From Armatimonadota bacterium (GTDB lineage Bacteria > Armatimonadota > Fimbriimonadia > Fimbriimonadales > Fimbriimonadaceae): a DNA stretch of 64,000 nucleotides. Within the stretch, counting starts at the first letter, position 1; each line of letters starts with the position of its first letter. Positions 21,975-55,688 of this stretch are shown here, piece by piece. The DNA lies in assembly GCA_025360125.1 (NCBI GenBank), contig JANYCU010000021.1, forward strand, positions 1 to 64,000, read 5' to 3'. The notes under the pieces were generated by a model. It had not been told where the DNA came from and made no database searches. It saw only the letters and a program-made list of their open reading frames with translations. The translations under genes were made by a program, and so were the position numbers.

Positions 21975-21985
21975 GTGTTTAGGTA

Positions 21986-22648
21986 CCATCCCTTCCGTCA
22001 CGTCGGTCATGCAGTTGAGAAAGCTTTCTGAATGACCGACGTGCCACCTTCCCATGCTTTGGGAAGGATTAAGCCTTCGGTATTCAGAAGCGTGTCAAGT
22101 CTGGGGTTGAATCGTCAATCCAAGTCTTGAGCGTCGATCTCGCCTAGGCAGATCATTCGGATCAGATCCGCCACGCCTTGAGGGTTTTGGAAAACTCTCC
22201 TTGCGGAGATCCTGACCACGGTCACTCCAGCTTGTTTCAATAACTGATCCCTCAAAGCGTCAGATCGCACCTTCACATCATGGATGTTGCCATCAATTTC
22301 GATCGCAATTTTCAGCTTGTCAATGTAAAAATCCACGATTATCCCTGGCAAAAGTGCAGCTTGGCGACGCACTTTGAAAATTTTGTTGTACTTGGGTCTA
22401 AGATAATGCCAAAGAATTATCTCAGGAGGCGACATTTCATTACGAAGTTTTTTCGATCGCTTTATTTGCTTTGGTGGCCGCTTTGTGAGCCGTTTCCTCT
22501 GGGAACTCTCTTCTTCCATGTGATTCTCTATATTACTGAAAGTCTCCATGGTTTGGATAACAAGATCCTTCCCAAAGCATGGGAAGGTGGCGCGCCAGTC
22601 AATCCGAAGTTTCCGTTGTCTTTTGACTGGCGTGACGGAAGGGATGGT
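21986..22648. mobile_element. DUF559 nuclease element 1, bounded by inverted repeats
   Basis: Perfect 18-base terminal inverted repeats lie at 21986-22003 (ACCATCCCTTCCGTCACG) and 22631-22648. Each end also folds. On the left, ACGTCGGTCA (22001-22010) pairs with TGACCGACGT (22034-22043), and CCTTCCCA (22048-22055) with TGGGAAGG (22061-22068). On the right, CCTTCCCA (22567-22574) pairs with TGGGAAGG (22580-22587), and CGCCAGTCAA (22593-22602) with TTGACTGGCG (22623-22632). The only gene inside is the DUF559 nuclease. The unit fills the gap between the convergent genes kdsA and the esterase. No clear target duplication is visible. Confidence 0.7.
22115..22549 (-). CDS. DUF559 (Vsr-like PD-(D/E)XK) endonuclease
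   Basis: Starts at ATG 22549 or 22519, giving ~134-144 residues. The frame is open upstream to 22666, but that part would be read from the terminal repeat. The basic N-terminus is followed by NEMSPPEIILWHYLRPK. The nuclease core has IIVDFYIDKLKIAIEIDG (Asp … Glu-x-Asp) and ends VVRISARRVFQNP…LIRMICLGEI. DUF559 proteins share the Vsr/PD-(D/E)XK fold, and their role is unsettled. A paralogue with the same ending lies at 55122-55541, also inside inverted repeats. Confidence 0.85.
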   Translation of the reverse strand: METFSNIENHMEEESSQRKRLTKRPPKQIKRSKKLRNEMSPPEIILWHYLRPKYNKIFKVRRQAALLPGIIVDFYIDKLKIAIEIDGNIHDVKVRSDALRDQLLKQAGVTVVRISARRVFQNPQGVADLIRMICLGEIDAQDLD

Positions 22649-22703
22649 TACCCAGCTGGTTTGCATCCAAAATAAACAGCTGGCGGAAACTCACCCTCCC
22701 ATC

Positions 22704-54845: not shown

Positions 54846-54989
54846 TTCCACCTATTTGAAAGCCTGGCAAGTCGTTTGACAATTCAGAGACGATTATCTA
54901 GCGATAGCCCTGAAAAGGGAGAGCCCTGATTGGATTTGTGACTGGGCGAAGTCCCAACCTTTATTTTACGACTAACTCCACATTCTTTC

Positions 54990-55633
54990 ATCATCCACCC
55001 CGTCACGCCAGTCATTGGTGATTAACGACTTTGGAATGACTGGCGCGCCACCCCTCCAATCTTTGGATGGGATTTTATTCTTGGACACCTTGAAGTAAAA
55101 ATTGCAAATAGAGCATGTAAAATGCCTTCTGTGGAAGGACCGAAACCAAAATCCGCGAAACTTCCGAGGTCGTTGCCCAAGCATATTGCTCGTGCGAAAA
55201 GGCAGCGAAATGAGATGCCGCTGCCAGAATTACTGCTTTGGATAAGACTGCGCCCAAAGGTAAACAAGGACTTTAATTTCCGACGACAAGCTTCTTTGCT
55301 TGGAAGATTTACTGCTGATTTCTATGTAACAAAGGACAAGCGAAGGATTGTTTTCGAAATCGACGGAATGATCCACGAGTTGCATCGACGCAGCGATGCC
55401 GAACGAGACGAGTTATTTCGAAAGGCGGGTATTTCGGTTGTGAGAATATCAGCGCGGAGAGTCTTGGCAAATCCAGATGGTGTTGCCAATTTGATTCGAA
55501 TGATTTGTCTCGGCGAGATCGAGGTCCAAGACTTGGAATAATGATTGTATTGTCCTGTCCTGGGCAAGAATCCCATCCAAAGATTGGAGGGGTGGCAGCC
55601 CGGTGACTTTGTCGGGCTGACGGGGTGGATGAT
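54990..55633. mobile_element. DUF559 nuclease element 2, bounded by inverted repeats
   Basis: Terminal inverted repeats are exact over 16 bases (54990-55005, ATCATCCACCCCGTCA, and 55618-55633). A second exact inverted pair of 28 bases lies inside (55047-55074 and 55569-55596). The left end folds CGCCAGTCATT (55006-55016) with AATGACTGGCG (55035-55045). The right end folds CAGCCCG (55596-55602) with CGGGCTG (55613-55619). The only gene inside is the DUF559 nuclease. It lies between two convergent genes, exactly like element 1 at 22.0-22.6 kb. Confidence 0.75.
55122..55541 (+). CDS. DUF559 (Vsr-like PD-(D/E)XK) endonuclease
   Basis: A 139-residue protein. The basic N-terminus is followed by NEMPLPELLLWIRLRPKVNK. 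The nuclease core is FTADFYVTKDKRRIVFEIDG (Asp … Glu-x-Asp), ending VVRISARRVLANPDGVANLI and CLGEIEVQDLE. It matches the protein at 22115-22549 through the whole core, and the last ~30 residues are nearly the same. It is the only gene within inverted-repeat element 2. The role is inferred to be cleavage connected with element movement or repair. Confidence 0.87.
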   Translation: MPSVEGPKPKSAKLPRSLPKHIARAKRQRNEMPLPELLLWIRLRPKVNKDFNFRRQASLLGRFTADFYVTKDKRRIVFEIDGMIHELHRRSDAERDELFRKAGISVVRISARRVLANPDGVANLIRMICLGEIEVQDLE

Positions 55634-55688
55634 TATTTGCGTAGTTATTCCATCACTCTGCAGAAAGGCCAATATTTTCGTCAAGTGA

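Follow-up and report, generated by a model that had tools for sequence, protein, structure and literature searches.

The window, a stretch of DNA of 64 kb, contains two DUF559 nuclease genes, each lying between a pair of inverted, structured end modules (Table 1). Copy 2 is a 644-bp unit in which the gene is enclosed by two inverted three-part modules, each composed of a palindrome (P), a hairpin (H) and a mirror arm (T). Its outer inverted repeat of 16 bp and its inner inverted repeat of 28 bp are both exact, and between outer and inner repeats there is one hairpin per side (CGCCAGTCATT..AATGACTGGCG and AGCCCG..CGGGCT), with hairpin-side single-strand folds at z = -3.7 and -4.0. These coordinates confirm the repeats and hairpins that a sequence-only reading of the locus had described. 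The same layout in different sequences, also part of that reading, was found again as copy 1, at about 21983-22650. The two nucleases are paralogues, as had been claimed, with 60-61% identity and Pfam DUF559 (PF04480) scores of 71.1 and 76.3 bits against a curated cut-off of 20.6. Searching the window with a covariance model for this end module gave exactly four matches, all of them bracketing the two nuclease genes. Neighboring genes are ordinary, and include those for a DAHP synthase, an acetyl xylan esterase and a TPR protein. Nothing in the window matched Rfam at the gathering threshold, so the module is not a curated RNA family. PADLOC returned a weak, sub-threshold-type match of copy 1 to a methyl-directed restriction enzyme, and no defence locus around copy 1.

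Table 1 Coordinates of the two DUF559 units in the window and of the parts of copy 2
Feature	Position	Strand	Details
Copy 1 left end module	21983..22069	-	Covariance-model match 21980-22069, 87 bits; single-strand fold z = -7.2
Copy 1 DUF559 nuclease gene	22115..22549	-	PF04480 E 2e-21; start codon at 22549 is our choice, open frame runs upstream to 22690
Copy 1 right end module	22565..22650	+	Covariance-model match 22565-22653, 87 bits; single-strand fold z = -5.1
Copy 2 whole unit	54990-55633		644 bp
Copy 2 outer inverted repeat	54990-55005 / 55618-55633		16 bp, exact
Copy 2 inner inverted repeat	55047-55074 / 55569-55596		28 bp, exact
Copy 2 left end module	54990..55074	-	Covariance-model match 54985-55073, 86 bits, E 2e-23
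Copy 2 left module parts	P 55074-55047; H ~55046-55006; T 55005-54990	-	T is the mirror arm
Copy 2 DUF559 nuclease gene	55122..55541	+	139 aa; PF04480 E 8e-20
Copy 2 right end module	55569..55633	+	Covariance-model match 55570-55638, 60 bits, E 1.5e-15
Copy 2 right module parts	P 55569-55596; H 55597-55617; T 55618-55633		H is a short hairpin; T is the mirror arm

The copy 2 protein contains the invariant columns E, Q, D, EIDGxxH and R, and its predicted structure (AlphaFold, pLDDT 88.8) has a PD-(D/E)XK/Vsr-like fold. The best PDB match was NGO0050 (3hrl, Z 12.5), followed by the homing endonuclease I-Bth0305I (3r3p, Z 10.9, 94 aligned, rmsd 3.0), and an EDxHD homing endonuclease profile was matched at E 2e-4. 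TnsA of Tn7 was a distant fold match (Z 6.3), and Holliday-junction resolvases and Vsr-type repair enzymes are among the fold relatives. Among named relatives of the nuclease in our genome collection, the nearest came from an uncultured Fimbriimonas (68% identity); judged by this one protein, the host probably belongs to Fimbriimonadaceae (Armatimonadota). Relatedness of YcjD to Vsr was published in 2005 (PMC1189080), and a DUF559 protein of Caulobacter, VsrA, induces the SOS response if a cytosine methyltransferase is missing (PMC12907096). Such a response is in keeping with DNA cutting in vivo by a putative nuclease. Two orthologous, vertically inherited pairs had dN/dS values of 0.07 and 0.10, which indicates that the protein is under purifying selection.

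Anatomy and mirror symmetry of the end module

Read in one orientation, the module is 60-90 nt long and consists of a pyrimidine arm, a loop and a purine arm (together the palindrome P), followed by TGGC, the hairpin H, GAC and the T-arm. Across 58 modules of the host genome the pairing of H was kept despite sequence change, with 95.9% of cells able to pair and 177 double-change cells versus 41 expected from shuffles. The alignment used for this count was fitted to the model, and a free alignment (A2) gave the same picture. The T-arm is the mirror image of the P purine arm, relating the seven bases before TGGC to the seven after GAC. In the same 58 modules this mirror match was 95.4% compatible at one exact register and 35-54% when slid, and permutation of the arms among 14 distinct pairs gave p < 5e-5. 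A direct repeat was tried as a description of the T-arm and rejected (68% versus 95.4% for the mirror, permutation p 0.97). Mismatches in the mirror obey third-strand rules, with T opposite A, and T stands opposite C in both module types whose purine arm ends in C. Order-wide, at 11 nt with one mismatch, mirror-without-direct matches numbered 52 versus 22 direct-without-mirror matches, and perfect 11-nt mirror matches rose from 5 to 31 once T opposite A was allowed, while direct matches remained at 12.

Mirror symmetry of a purine tract is expected neither from protein recognition nor from Watson-Crick pairing, and is the hallmark of an intrastrand purine-motif triplex, which we infer from this symmetry that window-type modules may form. 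The module has the pyrimidine, purine and mirror purine arms of a triplex repeat, fitting the pairs G·G-C, A·A-T and T·A-T. Published triplex repeats have a short second loop of 0-10 nt, whereas in window modules an H of ~30-55 nt lies between the G-arm and the T-arm; many modules of relatives have a short linker instead of the long H. This symmetry, and with it the kinship in kind with BoxC/PIT/TM repeats, is missed by the sequence-only reading. The TGGC-H-GAC layout is shared by Croceibacterium, as CCTCCCCC..GGGGGAGG-TGGC-AGCGC..GCGCT-GAC-GGAGGGGG.

Comparison of the two ends of single elements separates the parts of the module. In four of five host elements P was 100% identical between both ends, whereas the H stems were only 36-73% identical; in the fifth (L003) the P loop alone was identical. 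We read P, on this basis, as the probable recognition site, with H acting as a structural spacer.

DUF559 genes and flanking repeats across phyla

Enrichment of DUF559 genes within paired inverted repeats had been proposed as the check on the locus, and it was found in the host's order, where 57 of 87 such genes had a flanking inverted repeat with a score of at least 16. An equally good repeat flanked 0.3% of 1320 control positions and two of 180 other small ORFs, which bears out the view that the arrangement is not due to chance. Most DUF559 genes of the order therefore have repeats, the reverse of the outcome that had been named as speaking against the association, and 30 of the 87 are without a good flanking inverted repeat. 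The flank test is an inverted-repeat score with no module model, so both repeat kinds are counted. At 52 further loci, mostly proteobacterial and from several other phyla, 39 genes were flanked versus 0.5% of control positions. Of 48 named loci spread over many phyla, about 30 were likewise flanked, including those of Sphingomonadaceae, Bradyrhizobium, Rhodobacteraceae and Chlorobiaceae as well as Flavobacteriales, Clostridia, Melainabacteria and Gracilibacteria. In a co-occurrence test of 150 Pseudomonadota genomes, 23 of the 31 DUF559-bearing genomes and seven of the 119 others had at least five triplex-type palindromes (p = 1.4e-14, a value that ignores phylogeny). The association of DUF559 with such repeats across phyla is thus well supported.

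Of the seven repeat-rich genomes that have no strong DUF559 match, three contain weak, partial ones and the other four lack any. These four proteobacterial genomes (G098, G112, G134 and G220) have 19-202 triplex-type palindromes and zero DUF559 matches; the partner may have been lost there, or a different enzyme may be involved.

Intergenic hairpins are common near gene ends, and the palindromes could in principle be nothing more than hairpins, or terminators working in both directions, that enclose a small gene. We consider this extremely improbable, because only two of the 180 other small ORFs have such flanks and the modules are dispersed as a family, have mirror arms and contain a second hairpin that covaries. 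Plain terminator hairpins were rejected on the H covariation and the small-ORF control.

A DUF559 gene also adjoins a known triplex repeat in E. coli. Intrastrand triplex repeats (TM and TMECO, earlier PIT and BoxC) have been described in more than 260 genomes, often as inverted pairs; an E. coli repeat sequence forms a triplex in vitro by CD and NMR, in vivo footprinting detected no stable triplex in E. coli, and the repeats were stated not to be associated with mobile elements, with no nuclease link given (PMC4666352). TMECO no. 9, a BoxC repeat at 1,351,204-1,351,239 of MG1655 (PMC4666352), lies in the K-12 record between fabI and the DUF559 gene ycjD (1,351,407-1,351,760). By our arithmetic, the chance of any of 18 repeat sites landing so near ycjD is ~0.003. 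Strain 2021CK-01784 has a second triplex module, inverted and intact, that extends over the 3′ end of ycjD. This module is truncated in K-12, which probably explains the 12-nt difference in ycjD length between lineages (PMC12817139). The two E. coli modules are an inverted pair on the 3′ side of ycjD, and are not placed around the gene. In the fabI-ycjD interval (L249:2393-2430 and L252:1383-1421) the triplex module encodes the last ycjD codons. Upstream of ycjD, in the ycjD-sapF interval (L249:2758-2802), there is a long near-perfect hairpin, CACCTCATTCTGACAAGATTTAATCTTTTGTCAGAATGAGGTG, which is not a triplex module.

The ycjD gene is found in phylogroups A, B1 and C, with eefRABCD in its place elsewhere (PMC12817139). 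A clean empty site of the ycjD unit was looked for in E. coli and not found; ycjD-free strains have the eefRABCD efflux operon in the fabI-sapF interval. BoxC pairs at hrpB-mrcB, ygfF-gcvP and alx-sstT are present in some strains and absent from others, and internal collapse between direct copies of an arm was seen. These polymorphic sites show collapses and one replaced segment, from which we could establish neither the direction of change nor a target-site duplication.

Dispersal of modules and copies of the whole unit

The host genome (G000) contains about 62 modules, a lower bound with 72 candidates scored per genome. At least 37 and 34 modules of the window's type were present in its genus mates G002 and G009, and each remaining genome had at most eight, nearly all having zero, so that this type is abundant only in the three genus genomes. 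Most host modules are without a nuclease gene, and single half-ends are the commonest form. Fourteen of the 62 host modules were located within 700 bp of one of 11 DUF559 genes, where 0.3 would be expected by chance. A genome of another genus (G033) has an independent 61-bp module family at 51 places.

Several further observations concern these modules. Several modules lie in the first ~1 kb of six host contigs (C49, C42, C45, C35, C15 and C12), and this position less than 1 kb from contig ends suggests that the repeats interrupt the assembly and that their count is too low. Decayed copies of the nuclease gene exist, as L005 and L011, two of the host's eleven DUF559 genes, contain an in-frame stop (TAA and TAG). 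The A3 modules at L232, L235, L237-L239 and L241 are of host type with a GGGGGAG arm, TG[GT]C and the hairpin GGCGAATCG..CGATTCGCC; this type occurs in several copies, and no adjoining DUF559 gene was found for it. At L001 (G000:C56, ~192,700), about 40 bp of the 3′ end of the upstream gene (CTCGTCATCGAYGTGGAYCCATACAGCTTGATGTAAT) recur with a few mismatches immediately past the DUF559 element on its downstream side, as would be seen had the insertion brought along or duplicated the gene end.

Whole units are also present in more than one copy. At L068 and L069, two loci of one genome, the gene-plus-ends unit is 97% identical over 549 bp with unrelated flanks, and the units at L070 and L072 are 94% identical over 736 bp. 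Near-identical units at two loci with unrelated flanks support mobility of the gene together with its ends. The description of the locus as a self-contained element stands to that extent, and it does not extend to the end module, which is itself dispersed and mostly nuclease-free. No target-site duplication was present at L069; L068 has an imperfect 9-10 bp direct repeat inside a tandem array. Neither a target-site duplication nor a clean empty site was found at the loci examined.

An IS-like transposon, with DUF559 as a cut-and-paste transposase and MITE derivatives, would account for terminal inverted repeats around one gene, for gene-less derivatives, and for the distant resemblance to TnsA. 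It is nonetheless very unlikely, as target-site duplication was not seen and the H stems of the two ends are unlike each other. Furthermore, transposons of this type do not leave half-ends, which are the commonest form here, and the orientation of the module relative to the gene is reversed between lineages (the window versus L068).

Gene-less module pairs of ~136 bp lie beside gene-bearing units (L006 1232-1367 and L068 9308-9443). Such pairs could be empty sites for a free-standing homing endonuclease, in which a double-strand break in a gene-less pair would be followed by gene conversion that inserts the gene, and I-Bth0305I, an EDxHD enzyme, is the second-best fold match. This explanation is quite unlikely in our view, since it accounts for spread of the gene and not for the tens to hundreds of single dispersed modules.

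The nuclease could also be a caretaker that processes triplex or hairpin obstacles or breaks, with the repeats spread by another route. Purifying selection, vertical inheritance, the resolvases and Vsr-type repair enzymes among the fold relatives, and the repeat-rich genomes without DUF559 all fit such a role. We regard it as unlikely, as it leaves unexplained both the bracketing by inverted modules with matched P boxes and the near-identical gene-plus-ends units at separate loci. That one or other of these three explanations (caretaker, homing endonuclease or IS-like transposon) applies is quite conceivable, if somewhat short of an even chance.

A proposed nuclease-repeat partnership and its relation to known systems

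The reading that we favor, and hold to be fairly probable, is a nuclease-repeat partnership like REP/RAYT (REPtron) built from unrelated parts. In this proposal, a module exposed as a single strand, for example on the lagging-strand template, would fold so that the purine arm of its hairpin binds the mirror T-arm as a third strand through the three pairs given above, forming an intrastrand purine-motif triplex. The DUF559 protein, as a Vsr/EDxHD-type PD-(D/E)XK enzyme, would recognise P of its own module type and nick or cut there, most likely on the single-stranded, folded module. Repair of the break would place copies of modules, and at times of the entire module-gene-module unit, elsewhere in the genome. 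The gene would then be kept mostly vertically under purifying selection, and non-coding modules would accumulate singly or as inverted pairs. The binding and cleavage of the module and the copying step are inferred. The proposal as a whole draws on the cross-phylum association, the abundance of the window's module type in one genus alone, the covarying H and mirror arms, the matched P boxes, the repeated units, the low dN/dS values, the fold match to I-Bth0305I, the position of ycjD beside TMECO no. 9, triplex formation in vitro by related E. coli repeats and the SOS response caused by VsrA. Against it speak the 30 order-level DUF559 genes that are not well flanked, the four repeat-rich genomes in which DUF559 had no match, the placement of both E. 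coli modules on the 3′ side of ycjD, the failure to find a target-site duplication or clean empty site, and the published footprinting that detected no stable triplex in E. coli.

We propose more tentatively that a stand-alone Vsr-type nuclease that recognises and spreads an intrastrand DNA triplex might be the generator of the BoxC/PIT/TM repeats, which have been known for years without a generator or enzyme partner. Such a triplex-spreading nuclease could conceivably, though we would not call it probable, represent a mobile or selfish element of an entirely new class. If true, it would be the long-missing source of repeats in hundreds of bacterial genomes, including that of E. coli. The pairing of DUF559 with repeats may explain where triplex repeats originate, and a consistent partner gene family makes their origin testable directly in E. 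coli K-12. The large DUF559 family, so far of unknown function, gains a candidate substrate, and the partnership would be independent of REP/RAYT. Genome annotation is affected as well, since triplex-type modules probably account for many spurious ORF tails rich in proline or arginine in bacteria.

Triplex repeats and the DUF559 family were each already known, and the link between them is apparently unreported. We found no report of it in the open-licence journal literature, a scope that could miss an earlier report, and the open-licence papers on DUF559 and ycjD that were examined had no mention of repeats.

Both window genes belong to the DUF559/YcjD/VsrA (Vsr-like) family, which has been described as Vsr-like with an unknown or repair function. 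The enzyme shares the catalytic-domain fold of the EDxHD homing endonucleases (I-Bth0305I, 3r3p). Those endonucleases reside in introns or inteins without dispersed structured repeats around them, whereas here the gene is intergenic and enclosed by structured modules. The repeats resemble BoxC/PIT/TM (TMECO) repeats in having a C-arm, loop, G-arm, short linker and mirror purine arm (PMC4666352), and in being dispersed, intergenic and often in inverted pairs, with TMECO no. 9 adjoining a DUF559 gene. The window modules differ from them in their arm sequences and in having an additional hairpin, H (TGGC...GAC), after the G-arm and before the mirror arm. The likeness to REP/REPIN-RAYT systems lies in the organization, in which one nuclease gene, mostly vertically inherited, is bracketed by inverted palindromic repeats that are also dispersed as singles and pairs in the same genome. 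RAYT, however, belongs to the HUH (Y1) tyrosine nucleases and a REP is a simple palindrome, whereas the unit described here combines a PD-(D/E)XK/Vsr-type enzyme with a mirror (triplex) symmetric repeat, and it is not a member of REP/RAYT because its enzyme comes from another superfamily.
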